Positions 1,128 to 25,375 of a stretch of 28,699 nt of DNA are shown piece after piece (the first letter of the stretch is position 1; every line of letters starts with the position of its first letter). The position numbers and the translations under genes are program-made. The notes beneath the pieces are model-generated. The model ran no database searches. It was given only the letters and a program-made list of their open reading frames with translations, and was not told the origin of the DNA. Location: NCBI GenBank assembly GCA_025201365.1, contig JAIXMF010000163.1, positions 1 to 28,699 of the forward strand, written 5' to 3'. Origin of the DNA: Syncephalis plumigaleata. Its lineage: Eukaryota > Zoopagomycota > Zoopagomycetes > Zoopagales > Piptocephalidaceae.

Positions 1128-1478
1128 GTCGACTATACTATTTGATCAATATCGGAGGAAAAGGTGATGTCATTGTTAAATGGCTATGCGATATCACTTA
1201 TTTTATTAAGCATCCTTTTATGTTGTTACTATCATCAGCATTTCAGCATAAACATTCCTCACATAATCCTAGACAATATCCATTTGTTCCAAGATATATT
1301 GCAAGAATCTAATAAACATGCATACCCATATACTAAAGTAATTGATTGTAAATAAAGAAGTGAATTGGAATTGGAGGTTAATATCGTTTCATATCGATAT
1401 GGACGGCTAAGATGATCTATTTAGGTATTAACACCATTGAAAAGGAAACTGACACGTAAATATGCAATAACAATTACA
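1128..1478. other. Intergenic: ZW10 5' flank up to the inverted-repeat edge
   Basis: There is no convincing coding exon on either strand. This AT-rich DNA lies between the ZW10 start codon and the outer edge of the left repeat arm, and should hold the ZW10 promoter. No clear TATA box was found. The sequence has no counterpart beyond the right arm, so the homology really ends near 1479. Confidence 0.6.
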
Positions 1479-2421
1479 ATAAACAATATAATAAACAAGC
1501 AGTAACTAGTATAATGACTGACATGTCACGAACGAGCGAGGAATGAGCAAGGAAGGGTGCATGAACACGTATGCCAGTTTATTTGAAGAAGCAGTGTATG
1601 CTTGCAGGTAGATAGAGTATGTAAATGGCAATAAACAAATAAAAATACAAATAAAAGCATGACGTAATGGTGGCATACAAACAGATGACGGAAAAGAGTG
1701 GTAAAAGTAAAAGGTACATATAACAACGAGAGCAGTAAATGCTTAAACATTGATAAATAAGCAGGACAGTGATAGAAAACAAAGGACTAGAACGAACAAT
1801 AAACAAGGCTTATTGGTATAGTAATAATAACGACAAGTGAGCATGTAGATAGCTTAGAGGAAGAGGAACACAAAGAGATAAATAAAGGTCATAGAGATAG
1901 TATGGCAGAATAGCTGCTATTGGGAAGGTGTATGCTAAAGTGAAAGAGGGAGTAAGTGAAATGCGAATGACACGAAGAAGACGCGTATTACTGAGAAAGT
2001 AAATAGGTAAATAACTAGCATATAGTCAAGAGGAAGTAGACGTGTGTTGTTTACTGACAAGTGGAATGTAGTTGATACAAAGAAGACAATAGCGGTAAAG
2101 AAGGGAAAGGGAAACAAGGGAAGCAGCTAGAATGCAGTTGACACAAAGAATACGCGTGCTGTGTAAAGAAGTAAATAACAAGGTGAATGAGCAATAGGTG
2201 GAATAGTGGATACATGCAGTGAGAAATGGGAATAGTGACAAGCATGTGTATGTAGTGGGATGAAGTAGAATGATGGAAATAAATTGGAATGAATAGAGAA
2301 AACAATAGTAGAATGAATGTAGTAGCAAGTATAGGAATGTTTGTATGCAGTAATTTAGATTGTTAATGACAATAGTAATACATTTATTGAACCGAATTGT
2401 ATGGTACGCTAATGATGACAT
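1479..2421 (-). other. Kinase 3' flank, pyrimidine-rich on the kinase-sense strand
   Basis: About 0.94 kb downstream of the kinase stop is strongly C+T-rich on the kinase-sense strand (A+G-rich on plus). It carries many variants of a CATTC/CTACTATT theme. The bias suppresses stops and creates open frames of 60-131 codons in several overlapping frames, with Phe/Leu/Ser/Cys-rich, membrane-like translations. None has an intron pattern or family resemblance, so I treat it as non-coding 3' flank or low-complexity DNA. Part of it (1899 to about 2276) is present a third time at 10689-11066. Confidence 0.6.
2383..2388 (-). terminator. Polyadenylation signal AATAAA of the left kinase gene
   Basis: A canonical AATAAA on the minus strand lies 34 nt past the kinase TAA, at the usual distance for 3'-end formation. 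It mirrors 16407-16412. Confidence 0.55.
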
Positions 2422-4770
2422 TTAAAGACACCGTTGTCGCTTTGCCGGTGGCTCAGACCGGTCGGATTGCAGGATGCTGTCAAGCTTGCGCTTCGCTTCC
2501 TGCGCAGATTTAAACCATGGATGCTGCAGAGCATCCATGACTGTCATGCGTCGGGCTGGATCGACCTGGAGAAGGCCATTAATAAAGCGTGTCGCTAAAC
2601 ATAATTGGTTACAATTAGTGGATTGTACTAGTGTAATCATAACAACTTACCTTCGTTCACGGGTTCATTAAAATTGACAATCTCAAATGGCGCTCGCTCA
2701 TTTAAAATTGTATAAAGGTACTCTCCACAGGTCCATTTATTCTTCTTCATCATGAATGGATGAATACCTATGACATACCAGGTTAGCTATCATTGATTTT
2801 AAGTAAAGATTAGCTTACCACTTAGCAAATAGTATGCCAGGATGCCTATACTCCACATATCGGCACTTTTGTTGAATCCGATGTGTGGGTTTTGAATATG
2901 GGCAACCTTCTCTTTGCCAGTGTCGCCTTGATTCGTGAAGACTTGAATAACGACGTTTACATCCGTGCCAGTCAAAAAAACTTCTGGTGCCATGTATGCT
3001 GGCGTACCAACAAGTCCCTGTATATAAATTTCTGGATCTAACATTCGTGACAATCCGAAATCTGCTAGGAGGGTATGCGTACACCCCTCGTCCTTGAAAA
3101 GGATGTTCTCCACCTATATCTGTGTCAGTATTTGTAATAAAGCAAGTAATCAAATGACTTACCTTGATATCTAGTAGTAATTGGATTACATTAACCAGGT
3201 TATCATTAATAAACATTGTTAGTTAATCATAAGCATAATTACTTACCCAGATGAGCAACGTTGGCCTTGTGCAAATCCTAATAGTATATGGTTAATATGG
3301 TTCTAGTATTAATTATGGTTATATTACTTACTTTAAGAGCCAGTAGAATTTGGCGAATAATTGCCTTGGCCTTGGCTACAGGGAGGGGTGCAGGGTTCTT
3401 GGCCAGGTAGTTAAAGAGACTACCTCCTTTGGCTAGCTCTGTGACAACAAACGTGCCGTAATCGTTTACGTTGAAGCTAATGGCACGTAGTGTATGTTGC
3501 TGGTGTCGAAATTGTCGCATTATACCCCACTCGTTTGCCAGCGTCATATCGTCGTTATTGGCTTGCTTGATTGCTGCTGCCTCTCCAGTAGTACAGGATA
3601 TCCCCTTGTACACTGTACCGAAGCCACCGCTAGATGCGCACGTTAGCTATTCATTATAGAATTTCCCTGTATTTAACTATTTGATCACCTACCTGCCGAG
3701 ACGCTCTGTAGTGTGATAGTAATCACCGAGCATCTGTATCGTGTTAGTAGTAATACTGTATATATTGTCTCCATTTACCTGTGTATAATAATAAATATGA
3801 GATGTTTTCTTTGGTTCTGCTTGTTCTAACGCGGTATATAGAAATTTGTCTATATATATTGTTAGCCCAAATCTATCAATGAAGTCGCCGTAACTTACAA
3901 TTATAAACGTCTATATTGATCGTGCCGACATTTTTAAATGTACTGTTTTCATTTTCCTCCTGATCGTTTACTACAGAAATGATTAGCATGAATATTTGAC
4001 CGCGCATACCAATAACTTACTAGTTAAGGCAGCAAGGCCTTCATTCTAATAAGCGATTAGTTAAACGTTCAATATATTTGAGCATAGAACTTACTGTGAT
4101 ATGAATCATACCATTCTCCTAATGAGCTGCAGGTTAGATTACACCCATCGTTTAATATGGTTATTGGCTTACCTCTGATATGTTAAAAACACATTCGTTA
4201 CCGCGAGGAAGTTTATAATCACTAATGTATCGCAATTAGTAAATAGATCAAGGTGACATAGTAGTGACTTACCAACCAGCTTCATTACCGAATGATAGCT
4301 TGCTGCCACGGTAAAGCAGCAATTCTATAGATAGGTTAGTTATTCTCGTCTGTGTCATTCAAACATAGCTTACCCTGCTTCTTATCTCCTTCTGGCGTTA
4401 TCCACCCTACTAGCTTCGTGCGGTTCTCCTGCTTCAGCTCGGGCCACTTAAAAGGCACATGAATAAATTTATTACGCTTTTTTTCTACACCTGAGCCACC
4501 ATCGCCAGCAGCTGATAGTTGCGCTGGCTTCGGTGATGGCTCCGCTGATTGGAGTGGCACCGATTCCGAGGCAGCAGCAGTAGCAGCAGTGATAGGAGCG
4601 AGAATATGAGTGGGGGTAGGAGAAGTGGTAGTAGCGGGGATAGGAGCAGAAGTAAAAGCGACAATAGGTACTCTTCCATTGTCAGCACCAGCGGTAATAG
4701 CTGGTATTATAATAGGTGCGGACTTTGACGCAGACACTACTATTGGAGCTGAATCGGCACCTTGTTTCAT
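2422..4770 (-). CDS. FHA-associated CHK2/Rad53/Cds1-type Ser/Thr kinase, left-arm copy
   Basis: Fourteen exons give 550 residues. Residues 1-100 are Ala/Pro/Ser/Thr-rich and probably disordered. Residues about 105-230 resemble an FHA beta-sandwich (LLLYRGSKLSFGNEAGCDY, then ISEENGMIHIT), but the usual phosphothreonine-binding Arg of the FGR motif is Asn. The kinase domain covers about 231-520: glycine loop GSGGFGTVYKG (243-253), AIK lysine 265, catalytic loop AHLDIKVEN (D354, N359), DFG 374-376, APE 398-400, and an enlarged loop before DMWSIG. LLQVDPARR and HPWF close the C-lobe. The tail ends in a basic PPAKRQR that could be a nuclear signal. These features fit the checkpoint kinases that act downstream of DNA damage. 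HLD replaces HRD, making it a non-RD kinase, but the residues needed for catalysis are present. No SQ/TQ cluster is seen. Every exon is identical to the right-arm copy. Confidence 0.85.
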
Positions 4771-4955
4771 TTTGAAAGCACAATTGTTGAGTATATCGCG
4801 GTAAGAGTATAGAAAGTAGGGGTAGAGCTGTATGAGACTTAAGTGAAAACTTGCGCGTAAACCTAGATTGAACTAGATAGTGGAGAGAACTGGAGGAGTA
4901 GCGGAATAAGAGGTTGTGCATAGCCCATTAGCTATTGTCGCCAACACTAGTGGCT

Positions 4956-4962
4956 TTATATA
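4956..4962 (-). promoter_or_regulatory. TATA box of the left kinase gene
   Basis: TATATAA on the minus strand lies about 190 nt upstream of the kinase ATG at 4770. It is the mirror of 13833-13839. If transcription starts about 30 nt downstream, the 5' leader is near 150-160 nt. Confidence 0.45.
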
Positions 4963-4975
4963 ACACAGCACATAG

Positions 4976-5503
4976 GTCATAAAACTGTAGCTTCAGCTTA
5001 TACCGCTACACTTCGTCCAGTACGCTTTGTACCTGGGAATATTTCAAACTCATACTGCGCAGAACTGAGCAGAACTAAACAGCTCCAACACTACAATAAT
5101 AACATGTTTTTACGATCTTTGCCAATACTTGACCGATTTCGACGCGGCAAGTTTGCTTGTATAGCTCGACACTTGGTAGAATACGCTGTACACATTTAAT
5201 GTAGATATCTTTATTCATGACACATTTACAGGGCGTAGAAGATATTGGTCGTCAAGGTAAACAAGCAAAGTGACTGCGCACTAGCATCGTCTTTATTTGG
5301 AAGGTGGTTTTGCTCTATGTAAGCAGCCACGATTTGCCTGATTATTGACAAAGCACTTCCGCACCGATACCGTTTACCAGGATTTTCATCCATCCATCTA
5401 TCTATCTTTTGCTAGCGTTATGACGTAGACAGTTCATCCCATTCTTTCGACGCTATTACTTCATGTCAATTCCCATATCGCAAGCTATCGTTTTCCTCAT
5501 TTC
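4976..5503. repeat. Single copy of the 0.53-kb unit that is duplicated in the right arm
   Basis: This is the reverse complement of the units at 12699-13236 and 13280-13819. The part nearer the kinase (up to about 5053) carries the variants of the outer right-arm unit. The part nearer the spacer (from about 5077) carries those of the inner unit, so the left copy is a mosaic. The switch lies in or near a 10-bp minisatellite (5054-5086) with one unit fewer than either right-arm copy. A CATC/TATC tetranucleotide stretch occupies about 5387-5417. Confidence 0.85.
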
Positions 5504-6210
5504 TATATTCACTTATCCAACACAACGCTTCCAAAAACGATTATCAAACAGCTATTCCATCTAGGTTACACAATCCTTACCAAAAAATTCTCACGCCGTT
5601 ATTCCACTTATGCACTGCAGTTACGTCACTACAACATCGCACTGCAACCTAGCTTAACCCTGTGCATGTCATTATCGTAAACTACTATTTACTCCTAGCC
5701 TATTGGAACTAACTGACTGCACACTGCATCCGTTACCTATCTCAACTGTCTACGTCTTTTGCGCTTTTTACTTCTCTTTCGTTTTCCACCATCATTCTGC
5801 TACTCTTTTCTTGTAATGACACTTTCTACGTAATACTGTCGTTTATATACATAGAATGAGTTATTCTTTATTATATTTGTTCGTATGGCGGTAATAATAA
5901 GTATGCTATTAGGTATTATATATTTGCGTTTTATTTGCTTGAAAGTACACATGCATGGGACATTGGTTGTTGGAACTACAGCAGAAAGTAGCAGCTACTT
6001 ACGCGTTGGGACTAGTGCCGAGTAGTTGAACGGGATAAGCATTGCGTTTGCAGTTCGCAGCGAGCGCTCCTACCCCAAATTCTTAAGTATGCTGCTATGG
6101 GCTGTAGTAATCCGCAATCAATGTAAGCGGTACTTGAGTGTTCTGGATAGTTGGAAGGGCTGATATACGAAGCTAAGTTCTGCTATTACAAGACCCTCAT
6201 TTATCGCGGT

Positions 6211-6304
6211 AGGTGGATGTTGTGTATGTCCGCTATTACGCAGATCGAAAGATTGCTCAATAGTATTCCGTGGGGAATTCTAGGACATACAACAGCATCC
6301 GCCT
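6211..6304 (+). other. Imperfect hairpin of about 94 nt
   Basis: The segment 6215-6231 (GGATGTTGTGTATGTCC) faces 6283-6300 (GGACATACAACAGCATCC). Flanking AGGT and CGCCT extend the stem to about 21 pairs with one bulge and a G-U or two, around a loop of roughly 50 nt. As RNA it could be a structured non-coding transcript or a precursor hairpin; as DNA, a relic of a small inverted-repeat element. No known RNA family was recognised. An exact copy lies at 11898-11991. Confidence 0.4.
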
Positions 6305-6525
6305 CGCTACCCTTTGCTACTAACCATTTTGATTAACTAGGTAGTTGTCTATTCATATTACGAGGATACACGCAATACGCAGCAGTAACCAGAAGGTAAG
6401 TAAATATAGCCACTCGTGTACACAACCAATACTAATAGCTGCCGTTTACTAATTATACTCTTTATTATTCGTTTACAACGCTATCAATCATTTAATTGCT
6501 ACTATTATAGTCTAGATATCGCAAT

Positions 6526-6641
6526 CATAGGAAGCATATTTGGGTTGCCTAAGCCAGCATTGTCTGGCTTAGGAGGGATAGGGGTAGCTTACTGGCCTAT
6601 GGCCGGTATTGCTTTGGGTGTACACAAATATGCTTCCTATG
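6526..6641 (+). other. 116-nt three-stem (cloverleaf-like) inverted-repeat structure
   Basis: A perfect 17-bp outer stem, CATAGGAAGCATATTTG (6526-6542) against CAAATATGCTTCCTATG (6625-6641), encloses two further perfect hairpins. These are CCTAAGCCAG/CTGGCTTAGG (6548-6557 and 6564-6573, 6-nt loop) and the near-palindrome ACTGGCCtatGGCCGGT (6591-6607). It could be a small terminal-inverted-repeat element, a structured RNA or a cruciform-forming site. It has no tRNA features (no A or B box). No family recognised. Confidence 0.6.
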
Positions 6642-7135
6642 CGGGTTTTCCTTTACTTAATAAACGTCTTATAACATAACTTTATTCACTGCTAATACAA
6701 GAGACGACATCCAGACAATATGTACTAATTTTCATTCTAAATGTCAACCAACTGATACTCAACAACAATAGCAATATACCGGGATAATCAACTATGCTAA
6801 TACTCACTGCCAACACTCATTGCCATCCATCATTGACATGTATCCACTAGCAACATGAATAAACATGAGTCATTTTGATCTATATTGACATGTCATTCCT
6901 ATATCCCTTCCTATCTCATTATTGCTTCATTACCTCCTACTTGCCAGATCAGCATTGTATTCTAGTCTACTCGTTCCTCTCTTTCATCCAGCATCAATCA
7001 TTCCATACACTCATTCCATTCTACTATTCCGGCATCTTCATCAGTAATGCAAGTCATTTATTCCATTCTACTACCATTATACACATAACAATAAAGACAA
7101 GCTGTCCATTGCTTCATACCATTTACTATGCTTAT

Positions 7136-7397
7136 ACTTGCGCAGGATGCATCATTATTTTCTATTATTTCGTAATAATCCAAATAATCATACATGTATT
7201 GGTACAAAGCAAGAACATCAAGTAAGTACGGCAATTCCGTTTATTAATTCATAATCATGTTACATAAATATAAATAATGGTATGGCCATTTATTGAATAA
7301 CCATGTGACGTAGATCATCATTACTCGTTCACGCTGTATGTAATTAATACAAAATACACTCTTATGTAGTTTACTAACTAATGGCATGTCATTTTAT
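7136..7397. other. Spacer between left arm and eIF5B stop
   Basis: AT-rich sequence with no gene. An AATAAA-type signal on the minus strand overlaps the eIF5B stop codon (7393-7398), so part of this stretch is the eIF5B 3' flank. Confidence 0.5.
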
Positions 7398-9818
7398 TTA
7401 TTGAATGTCCAGCGTCTTCTTTAGTTTAACAATCAATGCCCATTCCTCCTTGGACACATCGTTACGGAAGCTTCCTTAAGAATATCAATCGATTGACGAG
7501 ATATCTAATAGCATGACGATTAATACTCTAGTCATGCTATCCATTAGTACAACAATAGTCGTGTCGCGCTTACCTTGCTGTATAGTTCATTCTGTTCTGT
7601 AAAGTGACGGCCTACCATTTTCGGTGTTTCATAGACGGGACATTCAATCTTAACGGCAACACCCGCGGTAGCTTGTCCCTTCTTTACGAGGTCGACACTC
7701 TTGTGATTCTGCTCGATACTGGTCACCTTACCGAGTGTGATGATTTTTTTCTCCTTCGTCTCGGGATCCGTGTTAATCACGCAGATCGGTGTACCGGGAC
7801 GGAGACTACCCTCTACCACGTCGACACCCAAAACGATTGGATCACGCTTGTGGAATACACAACCGGGTACGATCTTTAATACGCAAGGGAAGACCGCTTC
7901 AGGTGCTTGATCCTTGCGTTTTTGTTCCATAATTTCCTAAATAACATAACACAATAAAATCATCTATATTAGTTCTTCATCATCGTTGCTAATCACTTGT
8001 TATGCTATGTGCACTAGTAGATTTACCTTATTGTATGCCATAAATTGATCGAATAGATGGTAGATGATATTGGCGGTAAATATAGATATGCCCATTTCAT
8101 CTGCCAACTCTTGCGCATCCCTGTCGACCTTGACATCAAAGCATAGCATTACTGCAAATTCCTTGGCTCGTTCCAACATGGTCGAGCAGCGAATAATGTC
8201 ACGCTTATGCACGGGACCAATATTAATACCGGACACGGGAATCTTTGATACTCGCAGGAATTCCAGCAATGCTTCCAGTGAACCGATAGTCGATGCTTGT
8301 ACACAAACACCGCGACCACTTTTATCGACCGACTTCAACAAGGTTTGCAGATCGGACATGACCTCGTCCATTAGATCGTCTTCATCGTCATCCGGACCAA
8401 CCACCATGAGACGGGGGCGGCAATGGTCTTATCTAGTTCTGGCGCGCAAATCTTAACACCCATGGCGGCTTTAATGGTCTTGTGATGCACGTAGGCCAAC
8501 TATCATCATTGTATATTTACAGGTAAGCTGATGCTACTAATCAAGACACTATTGCTTGTCTCCCTTACCTTAACTCGTAATTCCCTTAATGGTTGCGGTG
8601 TAAGCAGTGCTCGGACATTGGTGACGATAGGTCCGTGCAAGCCGCATACTACAATACGGTCACCTTCGTTCAACACGCCATTCGACAATACAACATCAAT
8701 GGTGGTGCCGAGGCCTTCTATCACCTTTACCTCCAATACTGTGCACTCCAGTTCCGACGAATACATTAGCTTGTCGTTCATACGCGTTTGAGTTAGTTGC
8801 ACCAGCAGGTTAAGTAGATCGGGGATACCCTCGCCTGTAATGGCTGAAGTTGGCACGAGCGACACATTACGGCCAAGATTCTTATTATCATAGTAAAGAC
8901 ACGAGTTGAGACCCTAATCGTATCGTATCGTATCGTATCGTAGAGGATAGAATGATTCATTAGTGTTACTTTTATAATAGCTGACGACTAGACTCACCTG
9001 TTCAGCGAATTCCAATATGACTTTTTGGTACAATCCTCAAATTCCCGTTGTGCATGTTGCTTTTGTTTACTAAGCGAGTCGCGGAACGCATTGTTCGGAA
9101 TTGGTTTCCAGTCGTAGACACAATCAATCTATACGAACGATATCGTTGCACATTATTATTAGTTGTTCCGTTTGTATATTCCTCGATGTGTACAAACCTT
9201 GTTTAGTGCAACAATAAATGGCGTTTTACGATCACGCAATAGACGTAATGACTCGAGTGTTTGTGGCTCTAAACTATGCTACATAATAATAGTGCAAATG
9301 AATGGATCAATCAGCTAATGTATTCATGTACTCCATTCGCGTTATCTCAATCTACTTACCACAATATCTACAACGAGAATGGCGATATTACACAGCGATG
9401 AACCACGAGATCGTAGACTAGTGAATGACTCGTGACCTGGCGTGTCGATGACCAATAGACCAGGCAGTTTGTATTCAATTCTGATGTCCTATTAATAAGC
9501 GAGCATTAATAACTACTGACTAGTGGATCGGTGGCAATATCGAATTACCTCGGGTAAGCATTCCGTCTTTTGCTTAACCGCATCAATTGGGAAGTAGGTG
9601 GCACCAATTTGTTGGATAATACCACCAGCTTCACCTTCTTGAACATTAGTTTGTCGGATCTATATGAAATAATGGTTAGCATTGGTAATAGCTAATCAAA
9701 TAATGCGCACCTTATCCAATAGCTTGGTTTTACCCGTATCTACGTGGCCAAGAATGCAGCAAATGGGCGAGCGAAGATCATCCTTTGATCAGGCAGCAAG
9801 TGCTTCCTTCATACGTTT
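7398..9818 (-). pseudogene. EIF5B: eIF5B (translation initiation factor IF2 family), 5'-truncated and frame-broken
   Basis: Exons on minus: 9711-9818, 9549-9659, 9360-9488, 9198-9278, 8998-9128, 8569-8913, 8027-8499, 7574-7936 and 7398-7504. They cover the GTPase domain to the C-terminus: G1 GHVDTGKT, switch [12 protein letters not shown]3 DTPGHE, G4 NKID, G5 TSA, then domains II-IV ([46 protein letters not shown]) and the ISRQSIDIL end. eIF5B is the GTPase that joins ribosomal subunits. The Lys/Glu-rich N-terminal region (hundreds of residues) is absent, and no candidate exon lies upstream. An in-frame TGA sits at 9789-9791, just before DDLRSPICC. Exons 8998-9128, 8027-8499 and 7398-7504 each lack one base. 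The conserved switch I Thr reads Ile. Introns are retained, so this is a DNA-level copy and not a retrocopy. Base-calling error could explain the frame breaks but not the missing N-terminus. Confidence 0.9.
8917..8943. repeat. ATCGT pentanucleotide microsatellite
   Basis: About five copies of ATCGT lie in the eIF5B intron between exons 8998-9128 and 8569-8913. Confidence 0.9.
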
Positions 9819-10688
9819 CTATCGTCGTAAACATAGATGGTAAGTCGATTCTACTCGGCAATGATGACGACGATGTGAACTAATATACAATCTATATATG
9901 CACTATTGCTAATGTATTCACTTGCTCAGTATCGCATACCATTGTATATTAATCATACGCCATATTGCAGTAAGAGCATCGTATGGCACAATTAGTATGC
10001 CGAGTTATTTCACATTAATAATAATGATATAGACCATATGCTACGGCGTAGCTAGTGTATCATTAATTATTGTCAGAATGTCAGCTTATGTCATTTAATT
10101 CCATAGTATGCGGCTAACGAACTTCAGTAGGACTATTATCGCCATTTGTTCGCATTTAGCTGTACGATATGCGTATGAGTAAGGAGTTGACAGACAGTTT
10201 ACAAAGATCAATGCATTAATGGAATACTTCATAGTACTACTAGTCAATGCGCGTCTTAGTAGGAATAATGATATAAGCAATAGAGCTGTTTAAATAGCAG
10301 ATTACACGCTTGTAGTCGGTTCATATGAATCACGCATCCTATCTGTGCAGAATAGTTTACCAACAGAGAATTCATAGTGCAATGACAACGATTGCTGACT
10401 CATTAATACCATCACATATACGCTATTTGAACTCACTGCCGAGTAGGATAATTTTATTGAATTACCTTCTAAATAAACAGCTGATCGTCAATAGACATGA
10501 ACACGGGAATGAGCAAAATATTGAATATGTATGCAATGGGTTGCGAATGAAGTAGAAAACAAAATAGGGCAGCAGTATTGAAATAAATAGACTAAGCTGA
10601 ATGAACAGAATAGAACAAGAGAAGATGAGTTAAGCCTGACGCTAAGCAAAAAGAATAACAGAGAGCAATAAACAAAGAATAGAACAAT
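9819..10688. other. Anonymous stretch where the eIF5B 5' exons would be expected
   Basis: No coding exon is recognised. I looked on the minus strand for the charged eIF5B N-terminus and did not find it. Open frames at 10095-10280 (minus) and 10325-10555 (plus) lack any family signal. From about 10545 to 10688 the plus strand becomes A+G-rich, resembling in style the kinase 3' flank. It may be a diverged continuation of the copy that follows. Confidence 0.5.
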
Positions 10689-11066
10689 AGTATGGCAGAA
10701 TAGCTGCTATTGGGAATGTGTATGCTAAAGTGAAAGAGGGAGTAAGTGAAATGCGAATGACACGAAGAAGACGCGTATTACTGAGAAAGTAAATAGGTAA
10801 ATAACTAGCATATAGTCAAGAGGAAGTAGACGTGTGTTGTTTACTAACAAGTGGAATGTAGTTGACACGAAGAAGACAATAGCGGTAAAGAAGGGAAAGG
10901 GAAACAAGGGAAGCAGCTAGAATGCAGTTGACACAAAGAATACGCGTGCTGTGTAAAGAAGTAAATAACAAGGTGAATGAGCAATAGATGGAATAGTGAA
11001 TACATGTAGTGTGAAATGGGAATAGTGGCAAGCATGTGTATGTAGTGGAAAGGTAGAATGATGAAG
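10689..11066 (+). repeat. Third copy of the kinase 3'-flank segment, against the right arm's inner edge
   Basis: This is a direct repeat of 1899 to about 2276 (offset 8,790) and thus an inverted repeat of about 16519-16896. It differs from both arms at many sites where the arms agree with each other, for example GTTGACACGAAG here against GTTGATACAAAG in the left arm. Where the arms differ it can side with the left, as at GAGGGAG near 1936. It ends abruptly where homology to the left arm's inner part begins (11067). It is therefore older than the last homogenisation of the arms or was excluded from it. Confidence 0.9.
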
Positions 11067-11560
11067 ATAAGCATAGTGGATGGTATGAAGCAATGGACAG
11101 CTTGTCTTTATTGTTATGTGTATAATGGCGATAGAATGGAATAACTAACTAACATTACTGATGAAGATGCCGGAATAGTAGAATGGAATGAGTGTATGGA
11201 ATGATTGATGCTGGATGAAAGAGAGGAACGAGTAGACTAGAATACAATGCTGATCTGGCAAGTAGGAGGTAATGAAGCAATAATGAGATAGGAAGGGATA
11301 TAGGAATGACATGTCAATATAGATCAAAATGACTCATGTTTATTCATGTTGCTAGTGGATACATGTCAATGATGGATGGCAATGAGTGTTGGCAGTGAGT
11401 ATTAGCATAGTTGATTATCCCGGTATATTGCTATTGTTGTTGAGTATCAGTTGGTTGACATTTAGAATGAAAATTAGTACATATTGTCTGGATGTCGTCT
11501 CTTGTATTAGCAGTGAATAAAGTTATGTTATAAGACGTTTATTAAGTAAAGGAAAACCCG

Positions 11561-11676
11561 CATAGGAAGCATATTTGTGTACACCCAAAGCAATACCGGC
11601 CATAGGCCAGTAAGCTACCCCTATCCCTCCTAAGCCAGACAATGCTGGCTTAGGCAACCCAAATATGCTTCCTATG
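11561..11676 (-). other. Right-arm copy of the 116-nt three-stem structure
   Basis: Exact inverse of 6526-6641, with all three stems intact. Confidence 0.6.
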
Positions 11677-11897
11677 ATTGCGATATCTAGACTATAATAG
11701 TAGCAATTAAATGATTGATAGCGTTGTAAACGAATAATAAAGAGTATAATTAGTAAACGGCAGCTATTAGTATTGGTTGTGTACACGAGTGGCTATATTT
11801 ACTTACCTTCTGGTTACTGCTGCGTATTGCGTGTATCCTCGTAATATGAATAGACAACTACCTAGTTAATCAAAATGGTTAGTAGCAAAGGGTAGCG

Positions 11898-11991
11898 AGG
11901 CGGATGCTGTTGTATGTCCTAGAATTCCCCACGGAATACTATTGAGCAATCTTTCGATCTGCGTAATAGCGGACATACACAACATCCACCT
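11898..11991 (-). other. Right-arm copy of the imperfect 94-nt hairpin
   Basis: Exact inverse of 6211-6304. Confidence 0.4.
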
Positions 11992-12698
11992 ACCGCGATA
12001 AATGAGGGTCTTGTAATAGCAGAACTTAGCTTCGTATATCAGCCCTTCCAACTATCCAGAACACTCAAGTACCGCTTACATTGATTGCGGATTACTACAG
12101 CCCATAGCAGCATACTTAAGAATTTGGGGTAGGAGCGCTCGCTGCGAACTGCAAACGCAATGCTTATCCCGTTCAACTACTCGGCACTAGTCCCAACGCG
12201 TAAGTAGCTGCTACTTTCTGCTGTAGTTCCAACAACCAATGTCCCATGCATGTGTACTTTCAAGCAAATAAAACGCAAATATATAATACCTAATAGCATA
12301 CTTATTATTACCGCCATACGAACAAATATAATAAAGAATAACTCATTCTATGTATATAAACGACAGTATTACGTAGAAAGTGTCATTACAAGAAAAGAGT
12401 AGCAGAATGATGGTGGAAAACGAAAGAGAAGTAAAAAGCGCAAAAGACGTAGACAGTTGAGATAGGTAACGGATGCAGTGTGCAGTCAGTTAGTTCCAAT
12501 AGGCTAGGAGTAAATAGTAGTTTACGATAATGACATGCACAGGGTTAAGCTAGGTTGCAGTGCGATGTTGTAGTGACGTAACTGCAGTGCATAAGTGGAA
12601 TAACGGCGTGAGAATTTTTTGGTAAGGATTGTGTAACCTAGATGGAATAGCTGTTTGATAATCGTTTTTGGAAGCGTTGTGTTGGATAAGTGAATATA

Positions 12699-13236
12699 GA
12701 AATGAGGAAAACGATAGCTTGCGATATGGGAATTGACATGAAGTAATAGCGTCGAAAGAATGGGATGAACTGTCTACGTCATAACGCTAGCAAAAGATAG
12801 ATAGATGGATGGATGAAAATCCTGGTAAACGGTATCGGTGCGGAAGTGCTTTGTCAATAATCAGGCAAATCGTGGCTGCTTACATAGAGCAAAACCACCT
12901 TCCAAATAAAGACGATGCTAGTGCGCAGTCACTTTGCTTGTTTACCTTGACGACCAATATCTTCTACGCCCTGTAAATGTGTCATGAATAAAGATATCTA
13001 CATTAAATGTGTACAGCGTATTCTACCAAGTGTCGAGCTATACAAGCAAACTTGCCGCGTCGAAATCGGTCAAGTATTGGCAAAGATCGTAAAAACATGT
13101 TATTATTGTAGTGTTGGAGCTGTTTAGTTCTGCTCAGTTCTGCTCAGCTCTGCGCAGTAGGAGTTTGAAATGTTTTCAGGTACAAAGCGTACTGGACGAA
13201 GTGTAGCGGTATAAGCTGAAGCTACAGTTTTATGAC
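12699..13236 (+). repeat. Tandem duplication, inner unit
   Basis: Repeated with a period of about 583 bp at 13280-13819. A 43-bp non-repeated spacer (13237-13279) separates the units. It contains a GATA/GATG stretch, a CTTTGCTTGTTTACCTTGAC segment and a minisatellite of TTCTGCTCAG-like 10-mers (about 13118-13158). It differs from the outer unit by scattered substitutions and short indels. It has lost the kinase TATA region that follows the outer unit. Confidence 0.9.
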
Positions 13237-13279
13237 GTCACTTGTCACTCTACCGCGCACTAGTACGTAGGTGGGCAAA

Positions 13280-13819
13280 GAAATGAAAAAAAAACGATAG
13301 CTTGCGATGTCTGAATTGGGATGAAGTAATAGCGTCGAAAGAATGGGATGAACTGCCAATCTCATAACGCTAGCAAAAGATAGATAGATGGATGGATGAA
13401 AATCCTGGTAAACGGTATCGGTGCGGAAGTGCTTTGTCAATAATCAGGCAAATCGTGGCTGCTTACATAGAGCAAAACCACCTTCCAAATAAAGACGATG
13501 CTAGTGCGCAGTCACTTTGCTTGTTTACCTTGACGACCAATATCTTCTACGCCCTGTAAATGTGTCATGAATAAAGGAATCTACATTAAATGTGTACAGC
13601 GTATTCTACCAAGTGTCGAGCTATACAAGCAAACTTGCCGCGTCGAAATCGGTCAAGTATTGGCAAAGATCGTAAAAACATGTTATTATTGTAGTATTGG
13701 AGCTGCTCAGTTCTGCTCAGTTCTGCTCAACTCTACGCAGTATGAGCTTGAAATATTCCCAGGTACAAAGCGTACTGGACGAAGTGTAGCGGTATAAGCT
13801 GAAGCTACAGTTTTATGAC
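13280..13819 (+). repeat. Tandem duplication, outer (promoter-proximal) unit
   Basis: This unit ends 13 bp before the kinase TATA box. The 10-bp minisatellite is at 13701-13740 (four units). It shares outer-side variants with the left arm (TATGAG, ATATTCCCAGG), while the inner unit shares the remaining variants. Confidence 0.9.
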
Positions 13820-13832
13820 CTATGTGCTGTGT

Positions 13833-13839
13833 TATATAA
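13833..13839 (+). promoter_or_regulatory. TATA box of the right kinase gene
   Basis: TATATAA lies in GTTATATAAAGCC, 186 nt before the ATG at 14025, in a position that suits a leader of about 150-160 nt. Confidence 0.45.
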
Positions 13840-14024
13840 AGCCACTAGTGTTGGCGACAATAGCTAATGGGCTATGCACAACCTCTTATTCCGCTACTCC
13901 TCCAGTTCTCTCCACTATCTAGTTCAATCTAGGTTTACGCGCAAGTTTTCACTTAAGTCTCATACAGCTCTACCCCTACTTTCTATACTCTTACCGCGAT
14001 ATACTCAACAATTGTGCTTTCAAA

Positions 14025-16373
14025 ATGAAACAAGGTGCCGATTCAGCTCCAATAGTAGTGTCTGCGTCAAAGTCCGCACCTATTATAATACCAGCTATTA
14101 CCGCTGGTGCTGACAATGGAAGAGTACCTATTGTCGCTTTTACTTCTGCTCCTATCCCCGCTACTACCACTTCTCCTACCCCCACTCATATTCTCGCTCC
14201 TATCACTGCTGCTACTGCTGCTGCCTCGGAATCGGTGCCACTCCAATCAGCGGAGCCATCACCGAAGCCAGCGCAACTATCAGCTGCTGGCGATGGTGGC
14301 TCAGGTGTAGAAAAAAAGCGTAATAAATTTATTCATGTGCCTTTTAAGTGGCCCGAGCTGAAGCAGGAGAACCGCACGAAGCTAGTAGGGTGGATAACGC
14401 CAGAAGGAGATAAGAAGCAGGGTAAGCTATGTTTGAATGACACAGACGAGAATAACTAACCTATCTATAGAATTGCTGCTTTACCGTGGCAGCAAGCTAT
14501 CATTCGGTAATGAAGCTGGTTGGTAAGTCACTACTATGTCACCTTGATCTATTTACTAATTGCGATACATTAGTGATTATAAACTTCCTCGCGGTAACGA
14601 ATGTGTTTTTAACATATCAGAGGTAAGCCAATAACCATATTAAACGATGGGTGTAATCTAACCTGCAGCTCATTAGGAGAATGGTATGATTCATATCACA
14701 GTAAGTTCTATGCTCAAATATATTGAACGTTTAACTAATCGCTTATTAGAATGAAGGCCTTGCTGCCTTAACTAGTAAGTTATTGGTATGCGCGGTCAAA
14801 TATTCATGCTAATCATTTCTGTAGTAAACGATCAGGAGGAAAATGAAAACAGTACATTTAAAAATGTCGGCACGATCAATATAGACGTTTATAATTGTAA
14901 GTTACGGCGACTTCATTGATAGATTTGGGCTAACAATATATATAGACAAATTTCTATATACCGCGTTAGAACAAGCAGAACCAAAGAAAACATCTCATAT
15001 TTATTATTATACACAGGTAAATGGAGACAATATATACAGTATTACTACTAACACGATACAGATGCTCGGTGATTACTATCACACTACAGAGCGTCTCGGC
15101 AGGTAGGTGATCAAATAGTTAAATACAGGGAAATTCTATAATGAATAGCTAACGTGCGCATCTAGCGGTGGCTTCGGTACAGTGTACAAGGGGATATCCT
15201 GTACTACTGGAGAGGCAGCAGCAATCAAGCAAGCCAATAACGACGATATGACGCTGGCAAACGAGTGGGGTATAATGCGACAATTTCGACACCAGCAACA
15301 TACACTACGTGCCATTAGCTTCAACGTAAACGATTACGGCACGTTTGTTGTCACAGAGCTAGCCAAAGGAGGTAGTCTCTTTAACTACCTGGCCAAGAAC
15401 CCTGCACCCCTCCCTGTAGCCAAGGCCAAGGCAATTATTCGCCAAATTCTACTGGCTCTTAAAGTAAGTAATATAACCATAATTAATACTAGAACCATAT
15501 TAACCATATACTATTAGGATTTGCACAAGGCCAACGTTGCTCATCTGGGTAAGTAATTATGCTTATGATTAACTAACAATGTTTATTAATGATAACCTGG
15601 TTAATGTAATCCAATTACTACTAGATATCAAGGTAAGTCATTTGATTACTTGCTTTATTACAAATACTGACACAGATATAGGTGGAGAACATCCTTTTCA
15701 AGGACGAGGGGTGTACGCATACCCTCCTAGCAGATTTCGGATTGTCACGAATGTTAGATCCAGAAATTTATATACAGGGACTTGTTGGTACGCCAGCATA
15801 CATGGCACCAGAAGTTTTTTTGACTGGCACGGATGTAAACGTCGTTATTCAAGTCTTCACGAATCAAGGCGACACTGGCAAAGAGAAGGTTGCCCATATT
15901 CAAAACCCACACATCGGATTCAACAAAAGTGCCGATATGTGGAGTATAGGCATCCTGGCATACTATTTGCTAAGTGGTAAGCTAATCTTTACTTAAAATC
16001 AATGATAGCTAACCTGATATGTCATAGGTATTCATCCATTCATGATGAAGAAGAATAAATGGACCTGTGGAGAGTACCTTTATACAATTTTAAATGAGCG
16101 AGCGCCATTTGAGATTGTCAATTTTAATGAACCCGTGAACGAAGGTAAGTTGTTATGATTACACTAGTACAATCCACTAATTGTAACCAATTATGTTTAG
16201 CGACACGCTTTATTAATGGCCTTCTCCAGGTCGATCCAGCCCGACGCATGACAGTCATGGATGCTCTGCAGCATCCATGGTTTAAATCTGCGCAGGAAGC
16301 GAAGCGCAAGCTTGACAGCATCCTGCAATCCGACCGGTCTGAGCCACCGGCAAAGCGACAACGGTGTCTTTAA
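14025..16373 (+). CDS. FHA-associated CHK2/Rad53/Cds1-type Ser/Thr kinase, right-arm copy
   Basis: Exons: 14025-14421, 14471-14522, 14574-14622, 14677-14700, 14750-14774, 14825-14896, 14946-15016, 15062-15102, 15166-15463, 15518-15548, 15625-15632, 15682-15976, 16028-16144 and 16201-16373. They total 1,653 nt, an exact multiple of three ending in TAA. Exon 11 is only 8 nt (ATATCAAG) and encodes part of the catalytic loop (Asp-Ile-Lys), so skipping it would kill the enzyme. The acceptor at 14676 was preferred over an earlier AG because the latter brings in a stop; the same reasoning placed the acceptor at 15165. By recall, the C-lobe LLQVDPARR...ALQHPWFKS matches yeast Rad53 LLQVDPNNR...ALNHPWIKM closely, and Rad53 also has extra sequence between APE and DMWS. 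The coding sequence equals the left-arm gene, so this window carries two gene doses. Confidence 0.85.
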
Positions 16374-17316
16374 ATGTCATCATTAGCGTACCATACAATT
16401 CGGTTCAATAAATGTATTACTATTGTCATTAACAATCTAAATTACTGCATACAAACATTCCTATACTTGCTACTACATTCATTCTACTATTGTTTTCTCT
16501 ATTCATTCCAATTTATTTCCATCATTCTACTTCATCCCACTACATACACATGCTTGTCACTATTCCCATTTCTCACTGCATGTATCCACTATTCCACCTA
16601 TTGCTCATTCACCTTGTTATTTACTTCTTTACACAGCACGCGTATTCTTTGTGTCAACTGCATTCTAGCTGCTTCCCTTGTTTCCCTTTCCCTTCTTTAC
16701 CGCTATTGTCTTCTTTGTATCAACTACATTCCACTTGTCAGTAAACAACACACGTCTACTTCCTCTTGACTATATGCTAGTTATTTACCTATTTACTTTC
16801 TCAGTAATACGCGTCTTCTTCGTGTCATTCGCATTTCACTTACTTCATCTTTCACTTTAGCATACACCTTCCCAATAGCAGCTATTCTGCCATACTATCT
16901 CTATGACCTTTATTTATCTCTTTGTGTTCCTCTTCCTCTAAGCTATCTACATGCTCACTTGTCGTTATTATTACTATACCAATAAGCCTTGTTTATTGTT
17001 CGTTCTAGTCCTTTGTTTTCTATCACTGTCCTGCTTATTTATCAATGTTTAAGCATTTACTGCTCTCGTTGTTATATGTACCTTTTACTTTTACCACTCT
17101 TTTCCGTCATCTGTTTGTATGCCACCATTACGTCATGCTTTTATTTGTATTTTCATTTGTTTACTGCCGTATACATACTCTATCTACCTACAAGCATACA
17201 CTGCTTCTTCAAATAAACTGGCATACGTGTTCATGCACCCTTCCTTGCTCATTCCTTGCTCATTCGTGACAAGTCAGTCATTCTACTAGTTACTGCTTGT
17301 TTATTACATTGTTTAT
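16374..17316 (+). other. Right kinase 3' flank, pyrimidine-rich
   Basis: Inverse of 1479-2421. C+T-rich on plus, with long stop-free but overlapping frames that I judge non-coding. Substitutions against the left arm become frequent toward 17150-17316 (for example in the CATTTGTTTACTGCCGTATAC stretch, about 17154-17174). Confidence 0.6.
16407..16412 (+). terminator. Polyadenylation signal AATAAA of the right kinase gene
   Basis: AATAAA begins 34 nt after the kinase stop. Confidence 0.55.
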
Positions 17317-17772
17317 CGTGTATTCTATTTGTTCACTTGTTGCTTTCTATGCACTCAATTGTATGCATCATCATCATAACTTATCAATCATTCTAGTTTA
17401 TTGCTACTTGTAAGTACATGACATGGCAATATCCAACTATACTCGTACACTTGTATCGTCTACCTTATAGAATTGATGATGATAGTTATCACTATCAGTA
17501 AAGGATCCATTACTGAATACTGAATTGTTATTATTATTATGCTGTATCAATTGGCATTTCTATGGTGATAATGGTGTTAACAATTGTGTAAATTTATTTA
17601 TTAGTAAAAACAAATGCTAAAGGCTAGCTGGTGTTAATCAGTTGGAAGCACCCAATAAACAGCTCACTCACACATCCACACACAAAAACGCAAACGCAAA
17701 CATAGACAGACAAACCTTTATTGTATTATTTGTTTGCTTCTAATACACACACACGACAGATACTATTTGTTT
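17317..17772 (+). other. 5' flank of the SAM-SNF2 gene
   Basis: Single-copy DNA between the repeat edge and the SNF2 start codon. It is AT-rich, then CA-rich and poor in T at about 17660-17715 (CACACATCCACACAC, then AACGCAAACGCAAAC), which would suit a 5' leader. No clear TATA box. An in-frame open stretch before 17773 has no ATG. Confidence 0.5.
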
Positions 17773-20704
17773 ATGACAACGGAAAAACAGAATGCTACGG
17801 ATCAGTACTTGTACACAACCGTATATGCCAATATGAATCCACTAGTCAGTCGGTCGGCGTCACCGGCAATGTCAATCAATAATTCCGCAGAAGGCTCGCT
17901 CGAATTGTATGCTGAATCAAACGTAAGTAGACTGATAGAATCAACTGTGGAGAACTCAACGCTAACTCGAGTGATTTAGACAAGTGCAGCTTTCTCATCG
18001 CTATTTCTCGATCGAGCAATACGACCAAGACTGGAGGTACCGCCACAGGACGAAGTGACACGTTGGTCGCCGAGTCAAGTGGCTCACTGGTTTCAGCATA
18101 GTGTTGGCATAGAAGAACAATATGCTAATCAGTTTATAGAGCATGAAGTGGATGGTCAAACACTACTGCTAGATATAGATGAGACGTGTATACGTGAAGA
18201 TCTGGACATTAAAAAGCTCGGTATTCGAAAGCGGATCTATCGAGCCATTCTTACGCTAAGACAGCAGTTAATGGCGACATCCTACACGCCTACTATGATC
18301 ACGCCATCAGTCTCTGCCTCATCAGCATCAGTGTCGGCAACTTCTACGATGTATCAACCCGCTAAACGACAACGACTCAATACGGATATACCAAATGATC
18401 GTTTTTGGTCTAACAATGATGTGGCAACAGCTATAATCCCAATATTATCTAATATTAGTAGTGATGAACCTGGTTATAATCTACCTAGTCATACTAGTAC
18501 GCCAAGTGTAGTTAAAGACAAAGCGCCTATACTCGAGGGGTCAACCACTAGACCAAATACGAAAGATCGTTTAATTAGCGACTGGCTACCCTATAAAGCA
18601 ATAGAGGATCCATTTATAATGGATGCTAATGTAGATGATGTTAATGAAACGGCCTCATTTCAATTTATAGCTAGAGGTAAGTTTATTATTATTTACTTAA
18701 TCGACTCTATGGAATGATATTCATTTCGTATAATTCTAGATATGCCTCATCGATACTTGGGCTATAATGTTTATGTTCAGGTAATATCAATAATCTCAAA
18801 TGGAATATTTTACTTAATTATTGTATTTCTCTACATCTAGTCACAAATGAAACGATATTTACGTGGTCGCATTTCTGTTAATAAGCAGACAGATTTGCCG
18901 GAAATACAGAACAGATTTCGTGCAGTAGTAGTTGATCCAACGGAGGATCATAATGACACGAACAATGAATGTACACTCGAAGACGACGTATTACCGGTAA
19001 GGGATATGCTTGTATAATATCTCTTAGTATTTTAGTATTTATTCTATATGTATATATATATATAGCTCTATGGTGAATCAGACTATTCCGATACAGAACT
19101 TGATGAGGCATATGAAGATATAGAAGATAACAGTGGCACACGAGATAAATCCAATACAACATTACCAGCAGCAGGTAATATGTTTGCCCAATTAATCAAT
19201 TTACTCTCCTAATGCTGACATCTCTAATATAGAATCAGAATGCAATAGGAATCCAAGAATTCAACTCATGACCTTGGAACGTAAAAGGGAAATCATCAAG
19301 GAATATAGCAATCGATTATTAGAGAAATGGCAATCTAAACGGTAGATTATACTAATGTAATGCTTACTATTATAAACTAACTAAAATAATCCATCTAGTC
19401 TTACGGTATTAGAGAAACAAAAGTATTCTCTATACAAAAGAAAGTCGAACATTATAACACAAATTCATTCAGAATTGAAATATCTGTTAACTAAGGTGAG
19501 TATGTAATAACACAATCAATACTGAATTACTTAGTATGCTTTTTATAGCGATTACCTACAATGATAGACACGATTAGTAATACTGCCTATACGACAGAGA
19601 AGGCCATTACAACAGCATGCGGTGCACTGGATAGAACACTATTTTACATTTATGATTTATCATGGAAAGTTGGACTATTAGCATTACCAGAAGTGAGTCA
19701 TCTATCATACTAGTCATTGTATCAGATATTAATATATATATATATATATAATGACAAATAGGCACCATTAAAACCAGTGCGAACTAGGAAGAAAGCAACA
19801 TCAACGTCAATACTAGCGAATGACAATAGTAATAGTACAACAATAGAGAAAGAAGCGGAAGAAGAGGAGGAGTCAGATAATCTATCAGATTTTATTGATG
19901 ACAGTGAATTGAATCCTGATGATTACACTTCACTTCGTAATCTAATGTCAACAGATAATAATGATAGTGAAATGTTGGATTCATCGAATGAGCCATCAGT
20001 AACATTGCTACTTGATGAACTGATTCAACTGCCAACATTCCAATTATTGGATGTACCAACTACATTAGAATCACATGATACACCACCACCAACAACAACT
20101 ACTACAACAACTACAACAACAACTACAAATAATGAGCATGAGTTAGTAGATTTGTCATTGGATACAGATACTATTACATCGAATGGATTATCATCTAGTA
20201 ATAGTCAAGAGAATGATCAAGTTACAGTAAGTAATTCACCGCAATACGTGTCTATATCATCATCATCATCTCGATCATCCTCGCCTATTATATCGGAAAT
20301 GAGAGCGGATTCACCTCCACCTATACGATCACCTGTATCTAGTATGAGACGTGTATCTCGATCTGCAGCCACACCATTCACTGCTACCTCACAACGTTCC
20401 TATTCGATTAAACTAACGAAATCACAGAATACACCACCTACAGCAAGAAATACAGTGGCACCAACTGTTATTAATCCACCTGGACACACTAGTACTGCAT
20501 CTCCATCTACCGGCAGTGGATTATCGAATTCTTCAGGCATTGGATCGTTGCCGTATAATAACATCGAGACATTCTCTAATTGGACGGAAGAAGTCGCCGA
20601 ACGAACTATTAGGAATTGTCGTTGTGCACGTACGCGTATTCCAACTGCCATACGACGAGCGGTACGCAACTATTTAGATCTACCTGGTGAAAGTGAGTTA
20701 CATC

Positions 20705-20745
<41 letters not shown>

Positions 20746-23700: not shown

Positions 23701-25274
23701 ATCCATTGCCGTGTGAAATGGAGGAAGATGAAGATCCAGGTGTGAATACAACTGCATTATTACGTAATATTGGATTAGAGTAAGTCTCATAGTCAATTGT
23801 TATTACGAGCTGGATTATCTAAATATATATATATATATACATATACATATACATATATTATTAGACAAGATCTCGGTGACCATTGGATGAAGACAACCAT
23901 TGATTTACAAACAGGTAAGATGAATTGATATATGTTTGCTTCTCAATTACAACTTACATAATCAATTATTATCATTGTATTAGATGTTCGATCTATTCAT
24001 CATAGTACTAAAATGATGATACTCATGTCGATTGTTACAGCATGTATAGCAATCAAGGATAAACTACTAATATTCTCACGTAGTATTCCTACATTAGGTA
24101 ACGATATGATGCTTATATATGCTTTGTAAAGAAAAGCGACTAATTACTACGACTAGATTATATTGCTAGATGTTTAACAGAGTTTAAGATCGAGTATTTC
24201 CGACTAGATGGACAGACTAAGATTGCTGTAAGCTAATTATTAATGCATTAATGATTGATTAGACTAAATTGTATATGTATTAGGATCGACAATATATGAT
24301 TGATGCATTTAATGGCGGTAGCACAAAAAGTGTATTCCTTGTATCGATTAATGTAAGTGTAATCAGTAGCAAATGAATAATAAAGACTAATAAAATACGT
24401 AAGTCTGGTTCATTAGGCGTCAATATGATAGCAGCAAATCGAGTTGTCCTAGTCGATCTAGGTTGGAATCCAAGGTGAGTAATAGACCCTGTCAATAATG
24501 GCATAAATACACTTTGTATTAACTGATCCATTGATTCTATAGTCATGATGAACAAGCAGTTGCTCGTGTAAGTAAATGAATTGCTACATTCACATACATA
24601 CATACTTACACTCACTATGATGTAAAGGCTTATCGATACGGTCAAGTGAAACCAGTGTACGTTTATCGATTGCAGAACTTTGGTACTTGGGAGGATAAAG
24701 TGTACAAGAATAACATACACAAGATTGGACTGGCATAGTAAGTGATCATTACTATCATGTTGCTAAACAATGAAGATGATAGATGCTAAGCAATGTGTCA
24801 TTCATAGTCGAGTGGTCGATGAACGTAATCCTGATAAACATTTTACGCGTAAAGAAATATCCACCTATTTCACATTGCCTCCATTGAATGTGCCAACCTA
24901 CTTGGATGAGAAGACATTCGATGATGAGGATATTGTATTGGCCAATGTGTTAAAGAGGTATGCATGTCTTGCTTCTATTATGAATGATGTCATCTGATTT
25001 ATAGTTATGGTTATTATTATGTAGTTATCGCAATTTGATTGTCGATATTAGCACGCAGGCTTCATTGTGGCGAGAAACAGACGAGGAATTGTCACCTAGT
25101 GAAAGGGAAATGGCACATCAATTAGCCGAACAAGAAGGGGAACGCCTAATGGATGATCCTTCAAAACGACCTGAACCTGCTACGATTCCTGAATCAGAAC
25201 AGAAAGTAATGACAAATACAGAGACACAAGAGACAACTAATGGTGTTGAATCCACCTCATGTACTAACATATAA
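17773..25274 (+). CDS. SAM-domain plus DEGH-box SNF2 ATPase (ATRX/ARIP4-like), 33 exons
   Basis: Exon ends: 17773-17922, 17980-18676, 18740-18780, 18841-18996, 19066-19174, 19233-19341, 19399-19495, 19549-19692, 19762-20692, 20771-20864, 20929-21138, 21189-21821, 21898-21931, 21988-22074, 22134-22301, 22359-22473, 22530-22595, 22654-22805, 22868-22948, 23017-23145, 23205-23260, 23314-23407, 23461-23553, 23625-23779, 23865-23914, 23984-24097, 24157-24227, 24284-24352, 24404-24474, 24543-24567, 24628-24737, 24808-24957, 25025-25274. Sum 5,511 nt, 1,836 residues, no frame break. A SAM domain occupies about 79-146 (WSPSQVAHWF...GIRKRIYRAIL). A long Ser/Thr/Asp-rich region with poly-Thr follows. 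The ATPase starts near 1160: MGLGKS (1189-1194), DEGH (1322-1325), LTGSPLQND, ILKPIVLR, LRICNHP, and motif VI QAVARAYRYGQ (to 1673). DEGH instead of DEAH and the RVVDERNPDKHF tail are typical of the ATRX/RAD54L2 branch, nuclear chromatin remodelers. The SAM domain probably adds a protein-interaction surface. Confidence 0.93.
20706..20742. repeat. TA dinucleotide microsatellite
   Basis: About 18 TA units in the SNF2 intron 20693-20770. Shorter TA runs occur in the introns near 19050-19064, 19732-19750 and 23823-23838. They are likely length-polymorphic. Confidence 0.95.
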
Positions 25275-25297
25275 TGCAGTGTTATGTTATTATTAGC

Positions 25298-25303: not shown

Positions 25304-25375
25304 CATTACTACGACTACAACACTTGCTTGTATTAGCAATCATTAGCGTGATTATTGTATGTATCACTGCTACTA

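Follow-up and report, generated by a model that had tools for sequence, protein, structure and literature searches.

How does a genome come to carry two whole copies of one gene on the near-identical arms of a long palindrome, and what might keep those copies alike when related copies elsewhere in the same genome have drifted apart? The question is raised by a contig of Syncephalis plumigaleata (Zoopagales, Zoopagomycota), which attacks other fungi. This contig, C72, is 28,699 bases in length and was analysed in its entirety, here termed the window, alongside the remainder of the assembly (32.6 Mb in 383 contigs). An original prediction, based solely on the letters of the window, described a giant gene-bearing inverted repeat around a single-copy spacer, possibly homogenised by exchange between its arms; as a whole, this interpretation is partly supported. 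The account we consider probable is that the genome hosts dispersed palindromic modules, each consisting of two head-to-head kinase genes around a short spacer, the arms of which are kept alike by gene conversion.

A palindrome with a kinase gene in each arm

Comparison of the window with itself using BLAST identified two inverted matches far beyond chance expectation: positions 1476-5504 with 17319-13279 (98.9% identity over 4041 columns), and 4976-7135 with 13236-11067 (98.9% over 2170 columns). Hence, as in palindromes of the human Y chromosome type, two long, near-identical inverted arms flank a spacer, here of 3.9 kb, as had been anticipated. The predicted length differences are also present: a 541-bp unit occurs twice in arm B (12698-13236 and 13279-13819, 95% alike) and once in arm A, and a 420-bp segment from the outer part of the arm (1861-2282) is repeated at 10651-11070 with 93% identity. 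This third copy, E', abuts the innermost part of arm B, block G, and the same join is present in contigs C351 and C106. Each arm harbours a complete 14-exon kinase gene, the copies being transcribed away from each other, on the minus strand in arm A and the plus strand in arm B. Either gene has 13 GT-AG introns and, when spliced, a single open frame of 550 amino acids; the two encoded proteins are identical.

A region of contig C373, from approximately 556,567 to 585,804, is collinear with the window with the exception of the spacer, which is inverted. This locus (C373:558k) looks like the window locus in another haplotype, and the outer edges of the palindrome lie in identical positions in both contigs, which bears out the gene-bearing inverted repeat. 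Substitutions between the two contigs are most frequent in the spacer (2.05%) and the right flank (1.49%), with lower values in arm B (0.50%), arm A (0.28%, two of them in its outer 5 kb) and the left flank (0.07%, 1 in 1470). The low divergence of the left flank suggests a homozygous or shared stretch. From the near-identical left flank (1-1475) to the more divergent right flank (17320-28699), it is as if heterozygosity, or the assembly, switched at the palindrome.

A dispersed family of divergent palindromes

When the inner block of the arm (11524-13236) was used to query the assembly, 39 candidates were scored and 35 near-full copies recovered, the other 32 rows of the table being parts or short matches. 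Twenty-four of these copies form 12 tight pairs on eight contigs (C72, C290, C324, C383 and C111 with one each, C373 and C157 with two, and C24 with three), and the other 11 are single or farther apart. All 12 pairs diverge from their centre, with no convergent or direct tight pair among the 35 copies. The gap between the inner blocks is widest, at 4.8 kb, in the window and its apparent allele; of the other ten palindromes, five have a gap of around 2.4 kb and five one of 3.2 kb. Palindromes were counted by place, so that the window and C373:558k, treated as alleles, are both included, and the others may hold further allelic pairs. Similarly, a 103-residue piece of the kinase, encoded almost wholly by a single exon, matches 38 family copies with 51-99% identity, 36 of them without a stop codon (57 candidates were scored; three further rows, at 29-31%, are other kinases). 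Judged by sequence similarity, the feature in the window belongs to a dispersed family that includes no fewer than 12 tight palindromes, a pattern which the original prediction had not foreseen.

Arms alike within loci, copies different between loci

Arms were compared letter by letter in three palindromes, and are approximately 99% identical within each; the arm alignment of C373:558k, 6247 columns long, contains 10 mismatches and 19 gap openings, and that of a second palindrome on the same contig, C373:250k, contains 17 mismatches and 29 gap openings over 5912 columns. In the remaining palindromes the likeness of the arms was judged by match scores alone: inner-block scores are equal within five of the 12 palindromes and between 5 and 82 bits apart in the other seven, and kinase-exon scores are equal in seven of the 11 pairs having both copies, the second gene of C157:196k lying beyond the contig end. 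By contrast, alignment of stretches from different loci with the window shows a divergence of 8-22%, pieces of C373:250k being 79-92% identical to it. Such near-identity of the pair at one locus, when the loci have drifted apart, suggests that each pair keeps correcting itself.

Despite this divergence, palindromes of the other spacer type, with a block termed S, have a junction in common. The point at which the inner block, I, meets S has the same 2-bp coordinate step at nine junctions in eight structures, two of which are single arms; three junctions, of which one belongs to these nine and two are additional, were inspected letter by letter and break at the same place. One copy of block S is found near a BUB1/Mad3-like gene.

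The four arms of the window locus, two from each contig, were also compared at gap-free, two-state single-nucleotide polymorphisms (SNPs) within 11080-17250. Nine of the 27 SNPs are common to both arms of a haplotype, two are specific to the position of the arm, none is crosswise, and 16 are private to one arm (12 to window arm B, two to window arm A, two to C373 arm B and none to C373 arm A). At the outer edge, all six SNPs within the arm are position-specific, with five more just outside it. At the inner edge, six of 12 SNPs are private to C373 arm A and lie beside an indel; the other six are crosswise, and restate the inversion of the spacer, since five of them are already within it.

A truncated eIF5B gene in the spacer

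The spacer of the window contains a broken copy of the gene for translation factor eIF5B. Its N-terminal part has been lost, a stop codon (9791-9789) is found just before the P-loop exon, and switch I reads GGIIQQ, with Ile for the Thr of GGITQQ in the native gene. A Pfam scan of the spacer detected the IF-2 domain (E 1.7e-19), with EF-Tu domain 2 below the cut-off; the GTP-binding part and the last domain were recognised by eye. The spacer had been described as single-copy, which holds inside the window but not across the assembly: besides itself, its 3.5-kb core has eight full-length matches, two long partial matches, which are the native genes, two short pieces and six weak matches of around 70 bases. 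A 117-amino-acid eIF5B query gave 13 rows, all in the same 11 places. Therefore, nine 5'-truncated copies, including that of the window, are present in addition to two native alleles, the 11 being 95.6-99.1% identical over 2.7 kb.

The only eIF5B genes found with an N-terminal part lie at C201:32-53k and C356:2-24k, each in an inverted pair with a truncated copy; both continue into the charged N-terminal part, the start being beyond the stretch read. Identity between the inverted copies is 99.1% for the pair on C201 and 98.8% for that on C356, compared to 98.0% and 97.8% for the same position between contigs, such that the native gene and its truncated partner seem to exchange sequence within each contig. 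Block G is also found directly downstream of the native gene, which implies that the end of eIF5B was incorporated into a module along with the adjoining flank.

Probable arm-to-arm gene conversion

Together, the haplotype SNPs common to both arms and the second inverted pair at eIF5B point to arm-to-arm gene conversion. Signs of the exchange proposed in the original prediction are therefore present, the mechanism itself being what we infer from them. As in Y-type palindromes, the arms appear alike even though the palindrome would predate the split of its copies, based on seven clean SNPs and the block-S junctions, with mixing of reads during consensus building still a possible contributor.

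A number of observations weigh against this reading. Two of the nine haplotype-shared SNPs (11149 and 11150) fall in a messy indel, leaving the seven clean ones, and one of the two position-specific SNPs sits in the same indel; several of the 12 SNPs private to window arm B are clustered. The arms are unequal in score at places, with the inner blocks of C24:12k being those 82 bits apart, and kinase exons differ at C24:12k, C324, C383 (one with a stop) and C373:250k (one broken). The argument from the I-S junction covers the block-S palindromes; the window's type, with the eIF5B spacer, has a different inner edge and shares only the join of blocks I and G, with C329 and one arm of C373:250k. 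Between the two contigs, the left flank and the outermost 5 kb of arm A show almost no differences, unlike the right flank, which may mean that the window contig is partly shared or collapsed sequence. Arm A of C373 (L009) has about 12 small deletions relative to the other three arms, one breaking the kinase frame, which look like sequencing errors. Consensus building could have mixed reads of the two arms, although such mixing could hardly hide differences of 8-22%. Finally, the opposite orientation of the spacer is read from assembled contigs and, because arms of 6 kb are hard to cross in assembly, the inversion may be either real or an assembly choice.

If conversion is accepted, the palindrome would have arisen once or a few times and been disseminated as a repeat to many sites, and the 3' part of eIF5B with its downstream flank would have been acquired in one lineage. 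Arms within a palindrome would repair one another, keeping the kinase pair alike, and an occasional crossover between them would flip the spacer. The flip as a biological event and the mode of spreading are, like conversion, proposed from sequence comparison. The locus appears to behave like a gene-conversion palindrome, possibly with inversion through crossover.

Mobility and the origin of the palindromes

The dispersal of these modules could alternatively reflect a mobile element, or two opposed elements, with terminal inverted repeats, in which case the arms would be alike because they are young, and the kinase and eIF5B would be captured cargo. We regard this as rather unlikely as a full replacement for conversion, although the two may both be true together. 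The ends of the palindrome do belong to repeats, likewise unforeseen in the original prediction, with 318 first-look candidates for the end piece and 607 for a 227-bp block, 40 of each being scored; the latter repeat (17400-17626 in the window) is found at several places, around 70 bp beyond the end piece of the arm. At C351 and C106, a related unit consists of a diverged kinase between 873-bp inverted ends, 98.6% and 99.4% alike, and copies of an eIF5B fragment have reached other sites from the native locus. Pack-type transposons capture pieces of host genes, and the truncated eIF5B at several places beside repeat ends resembles this; by contrast with such elements, no transposase was found in a partial scan covering 19 of the 49 listed open reading frames (ORFs) of the window and three shorter ones, as would equally be the case for a non-autonomous element.

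Nor is there a consistent target site duplication. A 10-bp direct repeat is found at both edges of the C373:250k palindrome, but direct repeats of 7-11 bp occur at all five stretches checked, from three loci, and only that of C373:250k is at the edge of homology; the 9-bp repeat of the window locus sits inside the end of arm A. No empty site was identified for C373:250k, the left flank of which is unique, with no second copy in the assembly. Furthermore, youth alone leaves unexplained how palindromes with a common junction can be 8-22% apart. The sequences are compatible with both transposition and segmental duplication. Separately, a retroelement with reverse transcriptase and RNase H, and with gag-like and tyrosine-recombinase frames recognised by eye, is found at C351:588-592k (L011, 3874-8366), and is absent from C106, the likely other haplotype of C351.

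It seems improbable that each palindrome is instead a separate recent inverted duplication, generated by fold-back replication or template switching, with arms alike only because they are new. Near-identity within palindromes, the proximity of several to contig ends, and the lack of an inner edge common to the window's spacer type and any other tight palindrome beyond its allele would all fit such an origin. Set against it are the recurrence of the I-S breakpoint, at nine junctions by coordinates and three in letters, and the presence of the window palindrome on both haplotype contigs, with haplotype-specific SNPs in both arms. That hairpin reads or joined haplotypes produced the mirror copy is very unlikely: the window contig is only 28.7 kb long with 1.5 kb at its left near-identical to C373, some palindromes lie near contig ends and C373 arm A has indel errors, but two contigs give the same outer edges, all six two-state SNPs inside the outer arm edge are arm-specific, the 541-bp unit distinguishes the two window arms, other palindromes are inside contigs of 0.74 and 0.97 Mb, and the left flank of C373:250k is unique. 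The rejection of a simple artefact in the original prediction is accordingly sound for the palindrome itself, an artefact being an unlikely cause of it, and is qualified for the orientation of the spacer, of which an assembly choice is a possible cause.

Kinase exons diverge more than their introns

A separate puzzle arises from comparison of the kinase genes between loci. Five intact genes from five loci were used (window B, the right arm of C373:250k, C383, C329 and C157); C373 arm A, the left arm of C373:250k and C24 were left out owing to indels, and window A and C373 arm B as near-same to window B. Across the kinase domain, synonymous divergence (dS) is 0.51-1.11 and the ratio of nonsynonymous to synonymous divergence (dN/dS) 0.26-0.38 in nine of the ten pairs, with dN/dS extending over 0.26-0.46 across the comparison, whereas introns among the same exons differ by 0.15-0.21. 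Likewise, fourfold sites of the kinase-domain exons are 0.26-0.46 apart, compared to 0.14-0.19 for the cores of introns 8-13 (nine of ten pairs) and 0.11-0.32 for fourfold sites of earlier exons. Silent sites of the kinase exons (15166-16373 and relatives) are thus 1.5-3.3 times more diverged than the introns among them in nine of ten pairs, although bootstrap intervals overlap or touch for two of them, those that pair C329 with C373:250k or C157; the tenth pair, C383 and C157, is young, and the effect is absent.

This exon-limited excess is not what plain neutral divergence gives. Constraint on introns is a doubtful cause, as intron distance is nearly flat (0.15-0.21) while kinase dS increases from 0.51-0.69 to 0.98-1.11. 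Possible causes are selection that maintains old kinase variants as distinct, with conversion homogenising the remaining sequence, as has reportedly been observed for HLA, or a process of change confined to exons. A bolder proposal is that the palindromes are self-proofreading cassettes of a kinase repertoire, identical inside, with kinase exons held apart between loci by selection or exon-directed diversification and introns and flanks remaining alike, and that the family could act in recognition, conflict or drive. Its logic would parallel that of HLA or of the incompatibility repertoires of fungi, and we consider the proposal unlikely as it stands.

The kinase protein

A Pfam scan places the protein among the Ser/Thr kinases of the CaMK group (protein kinase domain, E 3.4e-50), and the closest solved chains by sequence in the PDB are twitchin and death-associated kinases (DAPK), followed by Rad53 and CHK2. 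The resemblance to the last two is in keeping with the checkpoint-type label it had been given, but that label is not established, since an FHA domain was looked for and not found: by eye, the region preceding the kinase is FHA-like, yet neither Pfam nor a PDB search with a five-sequence profile recovered such a domain, and the assignment was dropped. A diverged FHA fold may nevertheless precede the kinase domain. The translation retains GSGGFG, the AIK lysine, HLDIKVEN, DFG and APE, which we take to be the catalytic motifs, and because all are kept the enzyme may be active. The protein from C373 arm B differs from that of the window by two residues, and the frame in C373 arm A is broken.

Protein searches found one close relative, P0001, a hypothetical protein of S. 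plumigaleata with 65% identity over 63% of the kinase; the other 119 among the best 120 of 1591 matches are other kinases, with 24-36% identity. When the middle region of P0001 (residues 195-345) was used as a query, only P0001 itself was found among 306 candidates. A structure predicted from P0001 alone, with a mean predicted local distance difference test score (pLDDT) of 34.9, was discarded. The window gene probably encodes a lineage-specific CaMK-like protein kinase.

Comparison with known systems

To our knowledge, the palindromes of the human Y chromosome do not represent one module. They resemble those described here in their inverted arms, conversion and inversion, the latter two being proposed here from sequence. 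In human Y palindromes such as P6, gene conversion maintains the likeness of the arms and crossover between them causes occasional inversion; they number eight, large and on one chromosome, whereas here there are many 6-kb palindromes of one family, dispersed in a fungal genome that has two haplotypes (PMC3723533). In yeast, template switching between short inverted repeats is described as having both of the outcomes proposed here, homogenised arms and an inverted spacer; here, the arms are around 6 kb and carry a whole gene (PMC8604942).

A further likeness is to fungal non-self recognition, in that both involve a multi-locus, diversifying gene family; here the proteins are different, it is the kinase domain that has diverged, and a role in recognition is speculative. 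Work on such systems is said to concern HNWD genes and their concerted evolution. A fungal non-self recognition repertoire is the subject of one source (PMC1805685). Among titles and opening lines of abstracts on palindromes and fungal genomes, and on Syncephalis, no such palindromes or kinase family were found, which does not prove them unpublished. The best-known palindromes maintained by conversion are the few on sex chromosomes; with a dozen of one family in a fungus, one or more being present on two haplotypes, the speed of conversion, tract length and spacer flipping could be measured with replicates within a single genome.

Other features of the window

Table 1. Coordinates of features in the 28,699-base window
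Feature	Position	Strand	Basis or remark
Palindrome arm A	1476..7135	-	self-BLAST
Palindrome arm B, longer than A mainly by one extra 541-bp unit	11067..17319	+	self-BLAST
Kinase gene copy A, 14 exons, 550 aa	2422..4770	-	exon mapping, protein identical to B
Kinase gene copy B, 14 exons, 550 aa	14025..16373	+	Pfam Pkinase E 3.4e-50
Kinase B exons 1-7	14025-14421, 14471-14522, 14574-14622, 14677-14700, 14750-14774, 14825-14896, 14946-15016	+	
Kinase B exons 8-14	15062-15102, 15166-15463, 15518-15548, 15625-15632, 15682-15976, 16028-16144, 16201-16373	+	
Spacer	7136..11066	.	inverted in other haplotype contig C373
5'-truncated eIF5B pseudogene	7400..9850	-	limits partly by eye
E', third copy of outer-arm piece	10651..11070	+	self-BLAST; 4-bp overlap at join to block G
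Inner block G of arm B	11067..11519	+	arm A counterpart 6683-7135
Block I, upstream of kinase B, apparently non-coding, holds tandem 541-bp units	11524..13819	+	arm A counterpart from 6678 down to about 4976
227-bp dispersed repeat just outside arm B	17400..17626	+	607 first-look candidates, 40 scored

Between the inner edge of arm B and its kinase gene (11067-14024) there are 28 ORFs of at least 40 amino acids, of which two (12208-12399 and 13374-13556) lean towards third-position changes, in a check where part of the stretch was covered by fewer than four relatives; neither has a Pfam match. No Rfam family matched the window at gathering scores. Outside the palindrome, positions 25405-26273 encode the activation domain of vitamin B12-dependent methionine synthase, in line with the use of cobalamin in early-branching fungi described in an earlier report (PMC8085122).

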